Under the pieces are notes generated by a model. It had not been told where the DNA came from. It was given only the letters and a program-made list of their open reading frames with translations, and ran no database searches. Shown piece by piece: positions 2,353-8,989 of a stretch of DNA of 9,162 nucleotides; the first letter of the stretch is position 1, and the number at the start of each line of letters is the position of its first letter. The position numbers were made by a program, and so were the translations under genes. Origin of the DNA: Candidatus Desantisiibacteriota bacterium (GTDB lineage: Bacteria > JACRDZ01); contig JACQWU010000102.1 in the NCBI GenBank assembly GCA_016209155.1, positions 1 to 9,162 on the forward strand. Direction: 5' to 3'.

Positions 2353-2745
2353 TTAAGTAAGGAACAGCTTGATTCAATACCTGAAATCGGACCAAAAATG
2401 ATTGAAAGTATTACTGATTTTTTTCAAGACAAAAATATCCGGTATATTTTAAATAAATTCAAAAAAGCCGGACTTAAATTATCGCTTGAAGAAAATATGC
2501 AAAATTCGTCCATTGCAAATAAAATTTTTGTACTGACCGGTACTTTGAAAAAGTATTCACGAAACGAAGCAGTAAGACTTATTGAAAAATACGGCGGGAA
2601 AGTAAGCTCCGGCGTAAGTAAAAATACGGATTTTGTTTTAGCCGGAGATGATCCGGGAAGTAAATTTGATAAAGCTAAAAAAATAGGTGTAAAAATAATA
2701 AATGAGGAGGAATTTGAAAAAATTCTTAATCCTGACAGCATCTAA
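2338..2745 (+). pseudogene. ligA: NAD-dependent DNA ligase, C-terminal remnant (HhH end plus BRCT)
   Basis: About 135 residues match the end of bacterial LigA, which seals nicks using NAD. The last helix-hairpin-helix motif appears as LDSIPEIGPKMIESITDFF and is followed by the linker KFKKAGLKL. A complete BRCT domain follows: IFVLTGTLKKYSRNEAV, then IEKYGGKVSSGVSKNTDFVL, AGDDPGSKFDKAKKIG and IINEEEFEKIL. LigA is normally about 670 residues, so the adenylation, OB-fold, zinc-finger and most HhH domains are absent; the catalytic lysine would lie in the missing part. The frame stays open upstream to an ATG at 2275, but those residues lie in antisense kinase sequence and do not look like ligase. 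It ends tail-to-tail with the lipoprotein gene, overlapping it by 20 bases. It is either a truncated pseudogene or the end of a real ligA cut by an assembly join. Confidence 0.85.
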
Positions 2746-3664
2746 AACCAAGATCATAGTAATATAATGAAGGATTAAGTCCAAATTTACTTGAACATTT
2801 TGTATCTTCAGGTCCGCTGTCCCAGAATCCGCCATAATAAATTGCACCGGGTTTGTCCGTCCACTCCCATACATTTCCGCTCATGTCGTATACTCCGTAA
2901 TCACTAACACATTCTTTGTAAGTTCCTGCAGGAGCGGGGCCTTTTGCCCATTTCATGAAATTGCGGCATTTATGCGGAGAGAATTCATGCCCGTATGGAT
3001 ATTCCATATGATTGGGTCCGTCTAAGGATGAACTCCAGTCATAAGTCCCATTCCCGTCAAAGTCCCATTCATATTTAATTATTTTTCCGTCTCTGTCTCT
3101 GCCGGTTCCGTTAAAGATAACAGGAATATTTATAGTTGTCACTATCTCAGGTTCAGAATGTGCTTCCGGCAAAATATTTCCTGTGAATTCATCAATATTT
3201 AATGCATCCAGATCATAAAATTTTTCTTTGCCTTTGGGTATGGTTATTTTTATAGGATTGGAATATGAAGATTCATTCCCATTCGGAAGTATGCCTGTAA
3301 CGGTATAGTAATATGTTTCTCCTTCAAAAATATTCTGATCCAAAAAAGTTATATCCTTGATCTGTTCAGAGTTTATCTGCATATATAATTCTTTTTCTTT
3401 TAAACTCCTATAAATATTATATCCGCCTTTATAAAGCTTAATATCAAATAATTCATCCCATAATAAATATACACTTTTATTCATTTCATTATAAGAAATG
3501 CGTAAATTCGAAGGAGAAGATGATAAGGTTATGTTTCTTGGAGTAATAGACCTGGGAGTCTCCGTGAAAGGAGTAAAAGTCTCTGTTTTTTTAACAGGAG
3601 CACATCCGGTTAATAACAATAGTATAATTGCTATAATTAAAAAACCACATATTTTTTTCCCCAT
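2726..3664 (-). CDS. Lipoprotein with fibronectin III, PKD-like stub and partial SUMF1/FGE-like domain
   Basis: A 312-residue predicted lipoprotein. The N-terminal signal MGKKICGFLI...LLLLTGC ends in lipobox L18-T19-G20-C21, so C21 should be lipidated and the rest exported. Residues 51-143 resemble a fibronectin type III domain (PSNLRISYNE...YLLWD...GGYNIYR...YYYTVTGILPNGNESSYS). Residues 181-212 carry the start of a PKD domain (GTGRDRDGKIIKYEWDFDGN). Residues 220-312 match the second half of the formylglycine-generating-enzyme-like fold: YPYGHEFSPHKC, DYGVYDMSGNVWEWT, YYGGFW and LGFRC. The first half of that fold is absent and the PKD domain stops half-way, so an internal in-frame deletion around residues 210-220 (DNA about 3005-3035) is likely. 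The cysteine pair of true FGE enzymes is not evident, so sulfatase activation is not implied; a surface binding role is more likely. No Shine-Dalgarno is seen before the ATG, but the signal peptide supports this start. Confidence 0.8.
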   Translation of the reverse strand: MGKKICGFLIIAIILLLLTGCAPVKKTETFTPFTETPRSITPRNITLSSSPSNLRISYNEMNKSVYLLWDELFDIKLYKGGYNIYRSLKEKELYMQINSEQIKDITFLDQNIFEGETYYYTVTGILPNGNESSYSNPIKITIPKGKEKFYDLDALNIDEFTGNILPEAHSEPEIVTTINIPVIFNGTGRDRDGKIIKYEWDFDGNGTYDWSSSLDGPNHMEYPYGHEFSPHKCRNFMKWAKGPAPAGTYKECVSDYGVYDMSGNVWEWTDKPGAIYYGGFWDSGPEDTKCSSKFGLNPSLYYYDLGFRCCQD

Positions 3665-4982: not shown

Positions 4983-6323
4983 ATGGAATCACAAGAAAAA
5001 TTATCAAATGCAAATGGAATTGATTTTAATGAAAAAAAAATCATACTACTGGTTTTTGTTTTTGCTGTTTTAATCAGATTTTTTTATATTTATTTTTTTT
5101 ATGGATTTGATACTTTACCGGGTATGGACGAAATTTATTATCAGAAGCTTGCAGGCAATATCAGCGACGGATTGGGTTTTGCAATTAAGAAGGATGCATT
5201 CTCTACAAAAAAACCTCCTGTTTACCCGTATTTCATGACAGGAATCTATTTTATTTTCGGACGGGATAATTTCTTTGCACTGCGAATTATTCAGATTTTA
5301 CTTGGCGGAATATGTACGATTTTAATATATATTATTGCGGGGAAATTAGGGGGAAGACGTGTTGCACTTATATCCTCTATTCTGGTATCCATTGATCCGC
5401 TCCTGATCTATATCTCAGCATGGATACTGGCGCATATTATGGTCTATTTGTTTACTCTGCTCGCGGTTTTTTATTGTTTAAACACAATTGAAAAGCCTTC
5501 ATGCTATAATATAATTTTAGCAGGAATGTTCTGGGGGCTTACCGGGCTTTCAATGGGGTATAATACATTTCTTTTTTATCCGTATATTTTTATCTGGGGA
5601 TTAATTATTTTCCGGACTGATAAAAAGGAAGCATTAAAAATTTCTGTTATTTTATTTTTGAGTATGACTTTAACTGTTTCTATCTGGACAATTCGCAATT
5701 ATACTATTTATAAAAAGTTTATTCCGATTGTAACAAGCGGAGGACATCGGTTTAAAGGTTCAAATAATGCACGGGCAGACGGGATGTGGACCCCATCCAG
5801 CGGTTCCCCGCGATTTTTTTCAACGAGCAGAAATCGCGGATGGGGGGATTCTCCTGATTGGGAATCATGGGCATGTGACGCTGATTCTCTCTGGCTTGAT
5901 CTTCTTTTTAGCGAAAAAAAGGATTATAATGATTATGAAGTAAATCTGCTTAATTATAGAGCTGGATGGAAATGGATAAAAAATAATCCTGTTTCATGGC
6001 TAAAACTTTTGCCGAAAAAATTTTATCATCTGTGGGAACCATTAAATCCCCGTTCAACATTTCCTCGTCTGACACAAAAAAGGCGCCGGGCAGTAATTAT
6101 TTTTTACTGTTTTATTTTCCCGCTTTTTGTTATTGGAATATACTTATCAAAAGCTTTTTGGAGAAAATATTTAATTATATATTTAGCTATTATTCACACA
6201 ATTATAGGTTCTATGATTTATTACGGAGACGCTCAGCAAAGGGTGATAATAACTCCGTTTTTGAGTATTTTTGCCGCTTTTACTTTGAGCAGAATAATAA
6301 AATTCAGGAAAAATGATGAATAA
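4983..6323 (+). CDS. Membrane glycosyltransferase, GT-C fold, family 39-like (PMT_2)
   Basis: A 446-residue polytopic membrane protein resembling ArnT/PMT-type glycosyltransferases, which move a sugar from a polyprenyl-phosphate donor to a lipid or protein outside the cytoplasmic membrane. The first transmembrane helix (about 19-40) leads into an outer loop with the acidic pair D49-E50 in LPGMDEIYYQKLAGNI, the expected catalytic position. KKPPVYPYFM (76-85) matches the usual PPxYP segment. Further helices lie at about 98-119, 127-166, 176-210 and 216-236. A soluble stretch (about 240-370) starts with RNYTIYKKFIPIVTSGG, and the C-terminus returns to membrane with YYGDAQQRVIITPFLSIFAA (413-432). 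The start is preceded by only a weak ribosome-binding site (GGAT near 4970). Its end overlaps the hydG start by 11 bases. The acceptor and sugar cannot be told, and nothing ties it functionally to hydrogenase maturation. Confidence 0.82.
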   Translation: MESQEKLSNANGIDFNEKKIILLVFVFAVLIRFFYIYFFYGFDTLPGMDEIYYQKLAGNISDGLGFAIKKDAFSTKKPPVYPYFMTGIYFIFGRDNFFALRIIQILLGGICTILIYIIAGKLGGRRVALISSILVSIDPLLIYISAWILAHIMVYLFTLLAVFYCLNTIEKPSCYNIILAGMFWGLTGLSMGYNTFLFYPYIFIWGLIIFRTDKKEALKISVILFLSMTLTVSIWTIRNYTIYKKFIPIVTSGGHRFKGSNNARADGMWTPSSGSPRFFSTSRNRGWGDSPDWESWACDADSLWLDLLFSEKKDYNDYEVNLLNYRAGWKWIKNNPVSWLKLLPKKFYHLWEPLNPRSTFPRLTQKRRRAVIIFYCFIFPLFVIGIYLSKAFWRKYLIIYLAIIHTIIGSMIYYGDAQQRVIITPFLSIFAAFTLSRIIKFRKNDE

Positions 6324-7701
6324 TGAAATTATTAATAATAATAAAATTTTAGAAATTTTAAGTAAAACTTTTAATCCTGACAGAGCCAGATTAAAAGAAA
6401 TTTTACATAAAGCAAAAGCAAAAAAAGGATTAAGTTTGGAAGAAACTGCCTGCCTGATAAATATAAATGACAAAGAATTGGAAAACGAAATGTTTGAAAT
6501 TGCCGCGCGGATTAAGGACGAAATATATGGTGAAAGACTGGTTTTTTTTGCACCGCTTTATGTATCTGATCATTGTGTTAACGATTGTGAATATTGTAAT
6601 TTTCACATTAGAAATAAAACAATTTTAAGAGCAAAGTTGTCATCCGAAAAAATTCAGGAACAGGTGGAATTTTTAATTAATGCGGGGCATAAGCGGGTTC
6701 TTCTTGAATTTGGCGAAGATCCTTTAAATAATCCGATAGATTATATTATTGATACAATAAATAAAATTTATTCTGTACAAACAGAAAAAGGAAATATTCG
6801 AAGAATAAATGTAAATATTGCCGCAACAACAAAAGAAAATTATTTCAGGCTTAAGCAGGCTAAAATTGGGACATATCAGCTTTTTCAGGAAACATACCAT
6901 TTCCCTACTTACAAAAAATTACATATTGGTCCTAAAGCAGATTATTTAAGACAGTTATACGCGCACAATAATGCTTTTGAATCAGGATTGGATGATCTTG
7001 GGTTGGGCGTTCTTTTCGGACTTTATGACTGGCGGTTTGAAGTCCTTGCTATTATGTCACATGCAGAGTACATGAATAAAAAATACGGGATAGGTCCTCA
7101 TACGATTTCTGTCCCGAGATTCCAAACCGGACAAACAATTAAATATGAACCCGAATATAAAGTAAGCGATGAGAATTTTCTTAAGCTTATTGCGATTTTA
7201 CGTATTTCAGTTCCATATACAGGAATTATTATAAGTACAAGAGAAAATTCTGAAATTAGAAGTACTGCATTCAAAATCGGCGTTTCGCAAGCTTCAGCCG
7301 GATCTGTTGCTTCACCGGGCGGCTATGGAAAAAAAAGCAGTCAGCCACAGTTTGAAATTCATGATAAACGCTCTCTCAGGCAGATAATAGAAACCGTTCT
7401 TGACGATAAATTGCTTCCGAGTTTTTGCACTGCATGTTACCGGCTGGGAAGGACAGGTGAAGCATTTATGGCTATTTCCAAACACGGTGATATACACAAT
7501 TTCTGCCGACCAAACGGAATTCTGACATTTGCGGAATATCTTGAAGATTTTGCTGATGATAAACTAGATGATAAACTATACAAAAAAGGATCGGAAGTAA
7601 TTACTTTTTATTTGAACAAAATTGAAAATGAAAGTATGCGTAATAAAACAAAAGAAAGATTAGCAAGAATTAAGCATGGCGAGAGAGATCTTTATTTTTA
7701 A
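6313..7701 (+). CDS. hydG: [FeFe]-hydrogenase H-cluster radical SAM maturase HydG
   Basis: A cytosolic radical-SAM tyrosine lyase that cleaves tyrosine to supply CO and cyanide and builds the Fe(CO)2(CN)-cysteine unit for the H-cluster. The 462-residue protein has full family length. The SAM-cluster motif is C88-VND-C92-EY-C95. The C-terminal auxiliary-cluster signature specific to HydG is complete: C372 and C375, then C398 after exactly 22 residues (CX2CX22C, context SFCTACYRLGRTGEAFM). Other strong landmarks are QETYHFPTYKKLH (192-204), GVLFGLYDWRFEVL (232-245) and GPHTISVPR (261-269). It starts MM with the first ATG at 6313, overlapping the glycosyltransferase gene by 11 bases, and AGGAAA lies just upstream, so it is coupled to that gene. 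hydE follows after 109 bases. All catalytic cysteines are present, so the enzyme should be active. No HydF or hydrogenase gene is in the window. Confidence 0.97.
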   Translation: MMNNEIINNNKILEILSKTFNPDRARLKEILHKAKAKKGLSLEETACLININDKELENEMFEIAARIKDEIYGERLVFFAPLYVSDHCVNDCEYCNFHIRNKTILRAKLSSEKIQEQVEFLINAGHKRVLLEFGEDPLNNPIDYIIDTINKIYSVQTEKGNIRRINVNIAATTKENYFRLKQAKIGTYQLFQETYHFPTYKKLHIGPKADYLRQLYAHNNAFESGLDDLGLGVLFGLYDWRFEVLAIMSHAEYMNKKYGIGPHTISVPRFQTGQTIKYEPEYKVSDENFLKLIAILRISVPYTGIIISTRENSEIRSTAFKIGVSQASAGSVASPGGYGKKSSQPQFEIHDKRSLRQIIETVLDDKLLPSFCTACYRLGRTGEAFMAISKHGDIHNFCRPNGILTFAEYLEDFADDKLDDKLYKKGSEVITFYLNKIENESMRNKTKERLARIKHGERDLYF

Positions 7702-7715
7702 TAAAATTAAATGGG

Positions 7716-7794
7716 AAATGGGAAATAAGGAAATAGGAAGTTAATTTGAAGATTTGTTTTTATTTCCAATTTCCCATTTCCTTATTTTCCATTT
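7716..7794. repeat. Long imperfect inverted repeat between hydG and hydE
   Basis: Bases 7716-7739 match the reverse complement of 7771-7794 at 22 of 24 positions, and one of the two differences is a G-T wobble. The stem can be extended inward to about 27 pairs around a loop of about 25 bases. The left arm is purine-rich, built from GGGAAAT/AAGGAAAT-like units. It fills most of the 109-base spacer and may be a dispersed palindromic element, or an RNA hairpin that protects or separates the two cistrons. No T-tract follows, so it is not a standard terminator. Confidence 0.75.
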
Positions 7795-7798
7795 ATCT

Positions 7799-7804
7799 TA
7801 GGAG
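7799..7804 (+). promoter_or_regulatory. Ribosome-binding site fixing the HypC-HydE start
   Basis: TAGGAG lies six bases before the ATG at 7811. This strong site and the MCxAIPGKI start it serves show that translation begins with the HypC-like domain. The next in-frame methionine is residue 134, inside the radical-SAM core. Confidence 0.75.
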
Positions 7805-7810
7805 TAAATA

Positions 7811-8989
7811 ATGTGTTATGCAATTCCGGGTAAAATAACTGATATAAAAGACAAAATTGTAACAGTAGATTATTTTGGTGAAATAAAAAAAGCCCGAAAT
7901 GAATTTTATGAGCTTAATCCGGGTGATTATATTTATGCTCAGGGCGGATTTGTTATTAATAAAATATCAAATGAAGAAGCGGAGGTTATATTAGAGACCT
8001 GGCGTGAGTTTTTTTTTAAGCTTAAAGAAGTCGATCTTAAACTAACATATGATACTAAAACACTGCATCAAAGGGCAAATGCGGTACGCAGGCAAAATAC
8101 TGACAATTCATGCTGTGTTCACGGAATAGTTGAGTTTTCCAATTATTGTATTAACGACTGTTTATATTGCGGACTAAGAAAAAGCAATAATACCTGTATA
8201 CGTTATAGAATGGATACAGAGGAAATAGTTGAAACATGTGAAAATGCCGTAAACAAATTGGGATTTAAAGCTCTTGTTTTACAATCAGGAGAAGATTTTT
8301 TTTATGATGATGAAAAACTCAGCAAAATAATAAATAGAATAAGAGAGAAATGCGCGGTATTACTTGTAATGAGTATTGGTGAACGTGATTTAAAAATTTA
8401 TCAAAAATTGTATCAATATGGTGCAAGAGGAGTGCTGCTTAGATTTGAAACAAATAATCATGAGCTATATAAAAAAATAAGACCGGGACATGTTTTGGAA
8501 GACCGGATTAACTTGATAAAGAGTTTAAGAGATATGGGATTTTTAATTATGACTGGTTTTCTTGTTGGTCTTCCGGAGCAATCCGAAGCAGATATATTGA
8601 GCGGTATTGATCTTACAGGGACGCTCGGGACAGATATGTTTTCTTTTGGGCCGTTTATTCCGCATCCGCAAACTCCGCTTGCCGGTAATCCAATTCCGGA
8701 TATAAATTTAGTTCTGGATACAATTGCAAGAGCAAGAATGCGTTTCCCTGCTTCCAAAATTCTTGCGACTACAGCTCTTGAAACCCTGGATAAAAAAAAT
8801 GGCGCACAAAAAGGACTTTTAGCAGGAGCAAATTCTTTGATGATAAATGTTACCCCAAAAAAATATCAGAGCTTATATGAGTTATATCCCGACCGTGCAG
8901 GGATAGAATCAGATATTGAGGAAAAAATAAATTTAACTTTAGAACTGCTCTATTCTTTAGGTAGAGCGCCGGCTGATATTGGAATTTAA
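7811..8989 (+). CDS. hydE: HypC-like domain fused to [FeFe]-hydrogenase maturase HydE
   Basis: A 392-residue fusion. Residues 1-68 are a HypC/HupF-type beta-barrel domain: MCYAIPGKI at the very N-terminus, VDYFGEIKKA, then NPGDYIYAQGGFVINKI and EEAEVILE. Cys2, the iron-binding residue in HypC, is kept; the conserved His of the GDxxxxHxGFA motif is Gln44. From about residue 77 the protein is HydE, the radical-SAM maturase that processes the HydG iron product on the way to the diiron subcluster. The SAM-cluster motif is C113-IND-C117-LY-C120 in EFSNYCINDCLYCGLR. LQSGED (157-162), MSIGER (187-192), LLRFETNN (209-216), GFLVGLPEQ (249-257) and GPFIPHPQTPL (280-290) are HydE landmarks. The optional second iron-sulfur site near residue 319 has no cysteines, as in many active HydE. 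HydE alone is about 350 residues, so the HypC part replaces its short N-terminal helices. The gene is preceded by hydG and followed by a hairpin. Confidence 0.95.
   Translation: MCYAIPGKITDIKDKIVTVDYFGEIKKARNEFYELNPGDYIYAQGGFVINKISNEEAEVILETWREFFFKLKEVDLKLTYDTKTLHQRANAVRRQNTDNSCCVHGIVEFSNYCINDCLYCGLRKSNNTCIRYRMDTEEIVETCENAVNKLGFKALVLQSGEDFFYDDEKLSKIINRIREKCAVLLVMSIGERDLKIYQKLYQYGARGVLLRFETNNHELYKKIRPGHVLEDRINLIKSLRDMGFLIMTGFLVGLPEQSEADILSGIDLTGTLGTDMFSFGPFIPHPQTPLAGNPIPDINLVLDTIARARMRFPASKILATTALETLDKKNGAQKGLLAGANSLMINVTPKKYQSLYELYPDRAGIESDIEEKINLTLELLYSLGRAPADIGI

Follow-up and report, generated by a model that had tools for sequence, protein, structure and literature searches.

The window, the whole 9,162-nucleotide stretch of Candidatus Desantisiibacteriota DNA analysed here, contains two neighbouring hydrogenase maturation genes on the + strand, separated by 109 bases. 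The upstream gene, hydG (6313-7701), encodes a 462 aa protein that scored 524 bits against TIGR03955 (cut-off 312) and keeps both the CX3CX2C motif and the C-terminal auxiliary-cluster motif (CTACYR...FC). HydG is a radical SAM tyrosine lyase and the expected source of CO and CN-. The downstream gene (7811-8989, stop included; 392 aa) runs from an ATG at 7811 to a stop at 8989 in one open frame, with a ribosome site (AGGAG) at 7800-7804, and joins a HypC domain to a HydE-type radical SAM domain. Between the two genes lies a long inverted repeat (7712-7795; GGAAATGGGAAATAAGGAAATAGGAA... and its complement) with a fold of -32.6 kcal/mol (z -3.9). This repeat was absent from the related loci compared and may act as an attenuator or represent a small mobile repeat. 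Elsewhere in the window, a C-terminal fragment of a histidine kinase (1920-2351, - strand) and an apparent C-terminal fragment of LigA (HhH-BRCT; 2275-2745, + strand) run in opposite directions and meet at about 2300, a possible rearrangement or assembly joint. A lipoprotein gene at 2726-3664 (- strand) includes a fibronectin-like part, and its end resembles the last part of a formylglycine-generating-enzyme domain (GNVWEWT...GFRC).

Residues 1-64 of the fusion (7811-8002, + strand) matched Pfam HupF_HypC (PF01455) over its full length at 53.2 bits (gathering cut-off 28.5) and just missed the stricter TIGR00074 model (43.9 bits, cut-off 48). A phmmer search of solved structures with residues 1-72 alone returned HypC chains only, with 2z1c at E 3.9e-10. 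The HydE-type barrel was placed by profile match and predicted fold at residues 80-392 (8048-8986, + strand). Residues 79-372 scored 247.0 bits (E 2.9e-73) against the NCBIfam HydE equivalog model TIGR03956, narrowly missing its curated cut-off of 254.6; HydE was still the best-scoring family. Alignment located the radical SAM cluster motif, C113-x3-C117-x2-C120, at 8147-8170 and a fusion-specific Cys101-Cys102-x-His104 at 8111-8122, both on the + strand. The AlphaFold model of the fusion had a pLDDT of 87.8 and a pTM of 0.89. Against T. maritima HydE, its HydE part gave Z 40.2 across 310 residues; a separate model of the HypC part matched HypC 2z1c with a TM of 0.83. The original prediction had read a HypC signature continuing in one frame into a HydE with its CX3CX2C motif, and profile, phmmer and fold agree with that reading, including the presence of a HypC-like fold. 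A stop or frameshift between the domains was looked for and found neither in the window nor in any of 56 fusion loci. These results confirm a true HypC domain joined to HydE in a real single gene.

The 56 fusion loci were read directly, are all uninterrupted and come from at least three phyla, so that relatives with an N-terminal HypC on HydE, as the original prediction had proposed to search for, do occur. In a genome scan, ten contigs from Omnitrophota and Elusimicrobia encoded relatives of full length (47-65% identity); the nearest relatives of the window fusion share 58-65% identity with it. Further fusions were found in G018, G075, G090 and G121 and in a survey of 285 Omnitrophota genomes. 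The carrier phyla are Omnitrophota, the window's own (four genomes covered) and the phylum of G090, where 2 of 37 genomes have the fusion; one named Elusimicrobia contig (L036) also carries it. Most carriers are metagenome bins, but completeness reaches 95-99% in G018, G075 and G090, and G377 comes close to being a single contig.

Two forms of the fusion were seen. The short form of about 392 aa, to which the window protein belongs, passes from HypC straight into the HydE core without the N-terminal helices of ordinary HydE, and the long form (about 430-460 aa) keeps those helices between HypC and the core. In a quick tree the fusion HydE domains formed one clade (SH-aLRT 100). A single 915-aa HypC-HydE-HydG chain is encoded in G221 (L176:9650-12394), beside a group 4 [NiFe] large subunit, a protease and HypA, and G292 has two fusions, each by a different [NiFe]-hydrogenase. 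Unfused Omnitrophota HydE proteins (L196-L201, 39-45% identity) were considered as split ancestors and rejected: they gave no HypC match, and the stretches read held no [NiFe] large subunit. The suspicion that the fusion had not been described was upheld in the open-access literature, a set with few subscription papers and no bioRxiv preprints, where we found neither such a fusion nor a [NiFe] route independent of Hyp. A survey of [NiFe] gene neighbourhoods names HydE in its introduction only (PMC12727194).

To identify what changed in each domain, the HydE parts of the 56 fusions were compared with 41 canonical HydE proteins, the latter in T. maritima numbering. All or nearly all 56 fusions retain the radical SAM motif together with many residues of the pocket: Q158, E161, S188, E191, E213, R232, M276, R309, T320, T321, M344, Y356 and Y359, equivalent in T. 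maritima to Q107, E110, S136, E139, E161, R180, M224, R257, T268, T269, M291, Y303 and Y306. At the place where canonical HydE has V51-H/Y52-x-R54, all 56 fusions have C101-C102-x-H104, a motif absent from all 41 canonical proteins compared. The position of D154 is changed to R in the fusions, and those of T134, Y156 and P266 are also changed. The pocket of the fusions differs at several residues in this way from that of HydE, which binds complex B and forms the Fe(I) dimer. On the HypC side, 54 of the 56 fusions start with MCY, placing a cysteine at position 2, and one starts with VCY; the remaining frame has no such start as read and is probably cut at a contig end. The His of the canonical VHAGF motif is Gln44 in the window and Gln in all 56 fusions, and is His in 5/5 stand-alone Omnitrophota HypC proteins. 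This substitution is consistent, at the sequence level, with loss of HypD as a partner. A HydG variant, CTAGYRCGRTG, was tried as a marker of the partners of the long form and rejected, as HydG proteins next to canonical HydE have it too.

Genome content was assessed by family-model searches, in which positive controls matched. These covered the first 15 genomes in which the fusion was seen, of which three have a completeness of 95-99%. Neither HypD nor HypE was over cut-off in any of the 15, and HypF zinc fingers were found in none; the weak HypE matches probably reflect other proteins of the broad superfamily to which HypE belongs. A [NiFe] large subunit was over cut-off in 14 of the 15 genomes. 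HydF was over cut-off in one (G018), and an [FeFe]-hydrogenase (PF02906) was present in two (G018 and G108). The full [FeFe] set of G018 is accompanied by a separate canonical HydE without HypC. Among the 285 Omnitrophota genomes, 46 carry the fusion, 44 as complete fused frames or frames with both domains and two cut by contig ends; at least 12 of them have a second, canonical HydE. A [NiFe] large subunit was found in 46/46 of these carriers and HypD in 0/46, compared with HypD in 101 of the 112 [NiFe]-positive genomes without the fusion. The exclusion of HypD by the fusion gave a Fisher p of ~1e-29 over the 285 genomes, a value that overstates independence owing to kinship. HypD-negative Omnitrophota had a [NiFe] large subunit in 46/46 cases with the fusion versus 11/134 without it (p ~1e-32, with independence likewise overstated by kinship). 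In three of these eleven [NiFe]-positive genomes with neither HypD nor fusion, the contig breaks off at, or shortly after, the large subunit or protease, and in G218, also one of the eleven, HypE adjoins an N stretch. The window's own genome (79% complete) yielded no [NiFe] large subunit, HydF, HypD, HypE, HypF or [FeFe]-hydrogenase; its one PF00374 match, a NuoD-like subunit, lacks the Cys motifs. The function of the window fusion is therefore assigned through its relatives.

The gene neighbourhoods of the relatives point to [NiFe]-hydrogenases. A [NiFe]-hydrogenase component lies on the same strand within 10 kb of the fusion at 49 of 56 loci, a large subunit within 10 kb at 39 and HypA within 10 kb at 20. 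HydG lies within 10 kb at 35/56 loci and is not adjacent at 21/56; at least nine genomes among the latter have a canonical HydE, which makes HydG elsewhere in those genomes probable. Group labels were given by resemblance to the L031 and L032 subunits, with no formal classifier. Operons of group 3 type follow the order beta, gamma, small subunit, large subunit, protease, sometimes HypA, fusion, and often Rex and HydG; those of group 4, membrane-bound type contain Mrp-like or Ech-like subunits, ferredoxin, protease, HypA, fusion and HydG. HypD-positive relatives have hypC-hypD-hypE-hypA ahead of a similar group 3 operon. Complete large subunits adjoining fusions have both nickel-binding Cys motifs, RxCGxC and DPCxxC. 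Some large subunits stop right after the second motif, so that a protease is not needed, and their operons contain the fusion with no protease gene detected.

Several other arrangements were observed at these loci. L163:4194-6023 encodes a [NiFe] large subunit and maturation protease as one 610-aa frame. A gene for a ThiF/HesA-like E1 enzyme lies immediately before hydG in L033 (7577-8353), L037 (7865-8614) and L149. A gene for a Rex-like redox repressor (~210-230 aa) immediately follows the fusion in L157, L160-L162, L164, L165, L168 and L181, in most of them just before hydG, which suggests NADH-responsive control. Near the [NiFe]-fusion operon of L161, an HndD-like [FeFe]-hydrogenase (14869-16632) has TSCSSAW instead of the usual TSCCPAW; this contig also has a canonical HydE.

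Between genomes, very similar [NiFe]-hydrogenases were accompanied in some cases by Hyp and in others by the fusion. In quick trees of large subunits, which address the kinship of the genomes, fusion-served and HypD-served enzymes were interleaved: the group 3 tree had 11 changes of fusion label, at least five of them forced by well-supported branches, and the group 4 tree had six, at least two forced in this way. This interleaving indicates that the two maturation systems replaced each other on very similar hydrogenases. It argues that the Hyp and fusion systems would deliver an equivalent product, and genetic replacement of HypD/E/F by the fusion is, as judged from genes and trees, well supported.

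We consider it probable that the fusion and HydG together are the module that assembles and delivers the iron-CO/CN unit in a [NiFe]-hydrogenase maturation route independent of Hyp. In the Hyp route, cyanide comes from HypE/HypF and Fe(CN)2(CO) is assembled on HypC/HypD (PMC6802093); in the [FeFe] route, HydG makes [Fe(cys)(CN)(CO)2]-, which is passed directly to HydE (PMC12752695). In the route proposed here, HydG would cleave tyrosine and build an Fe(CO)x(CN)y unit, which would enter the barrel of the HydE domain. There, radical SAM chemistry and the Cys-Cys-x-His site may hold or remodel the unit, so that the barrel would be the scaffold replacing HypD, and the cyanide supply of HypE/HypF would also be replaced. 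Like that of ordinary HypC, Cys2 of the tethered HypC domain would then bring the iron unit to the large subunit in its apo form, and maturation would finish in the usual manner with nickel insertion (HypA) and C-terminal proteolysis. Against this route counts the ligand exchange that it would require, because the HydG unit has one CN to two CO and the ordinary [NiFe] site two CN to one CO. Also weighing against it are the [NiFe] large subunit missing from the window's 79%-complete genome, the 21 loci where HydG is not adjacent and the predominance of metagenome bins among the carriers. We infer every chemical step of this route, together with Fe(CN)2(CO) as the final unit and the possession of such a hydrogenase by the window organism.

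The original prediction had the HypC domain capture the HydG product and feed it to HydE. Of this, it is plausible that a tethered domain carries an iron-CO/CN unit derived from HydG, but an [FeFe] target is contradicted by genome content and by the [NiFe] operons. That the fusion acts as an [FeFe] maturase, passing the unit on to HydF, is thus very improbable. Elsewhere HydE and HydG mature [FeFe]-hydrogenases, HydG adjoins the fusion and the HydE pocket scaffold is largely conserved, yet HydF is over cut-off in only 1/15 and an [FeFe]-hydrogenase present in 2/15 fusion genomes, G018 has a separate canonical HydE where the [FeFe] enzyme is present, and the [NiFe] operon context is joined by a complete exclusion of HypD. 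The crossing of two maturation systems that had been noted is real; its direction is the recruitment of HydG/HydE chemistry to [NiFe]-hydrogenases. Somewhat less improbable, though still unlikely, is a module that serves [NiFe]-hydrogenases and installs another iron unit, such as Fe(CO)2(CN), in an unusual active site. The two CO and one CN of the known HydG product (PMC12752695) would fit such a site, as would the missing HypE/HypF, the known source of extra cyanide; against it, fusion-served and HypD-served large subunits closely resemble each other and mix in the trees, suggesting that both have the same site.

There is little probability that the fusion is auxiliary or regulatory for the [NiFe] operons, with maturation left to an unrecognised pathway or to very divergent HypD/E/F. 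The genome searches rest on family models and the chemistry of the fusion is deduced, which leaves room for such a role, but HypD, HypE and HypF are jointly missing while HypC, HydE and HydG are present with conserved catalytic motifs. The chance that an artefact joined two genes is negligible. A T9 run (8009-8017) does lie at the domain junction, in frame, on a contig from a fragmented assembly; an assembly or sequencing frameshift at this run was ruled out by the 56 intact loci, which have the same unbroken fusion in two forms and one clade.

The preferred reading, a [NiFe] module of HydG and HypC-HydE, shares with HypCDEF a HypC domain with Cys2, the [NiFe] large subunit, protease and HypA of the fusion operons and presumably the recipient. 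It differs in that fusion genomes lack HypD, HypE and HypF and have HydG with a fused HydE-type radical SAM protein instead, and in that the HypC His is Gln. With the [FeFe] HydE/HydG system it shares the HydE barrel (Z 40), CX3CX2C, much of the pocket and an adjacent HydG with both cluster motifs, whereas the N-terminal HypC, the C-C-x-H site and the usual lack of HydF and [FeFe]-hydrogenase set it apart. Hcg/HmdB, of [Fe]-hydrogenase cofactor synthesis, also relies on a radical SAM protein, one that shares a broad family with the fusion, but the fusion scored only 66.7 bits against the HmdB model (cut-off 320.9). We regard it as likely that these genes represent a fourth hydrogenase maturation pathway, in which HydG and HypC-HydE would make and deliver Fe(CN)2(CO) from tyrosine, with the CC-x-H barrel site in place of HypD, and which has been repeatedly swapped with HypCDEF.

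[NiFe]-hydrogenases are taught as needing HypC, HypD, HypE and HypF and as drawing their cyanide from carbamoyl phosphate, and HydG/HydE chemistry is taught as private to [FeFe] enzymes. All components described here come from known families; what would be new is the pathway they make up. If true, it would give [NiFe]-hydrogenases a second, radical SAM, tyrosine-based route, and two annotation rules would fail: that hydE/hydG indicate [FeFe] potential, and that a genome without hypD has no active [NiFe] enzyme. It would also offer a short two-gene cassette for making [NiFe]-hydrogenases, and the handling of mononuclear Fe-CO/CN units by HydE would become testable in a new setting.
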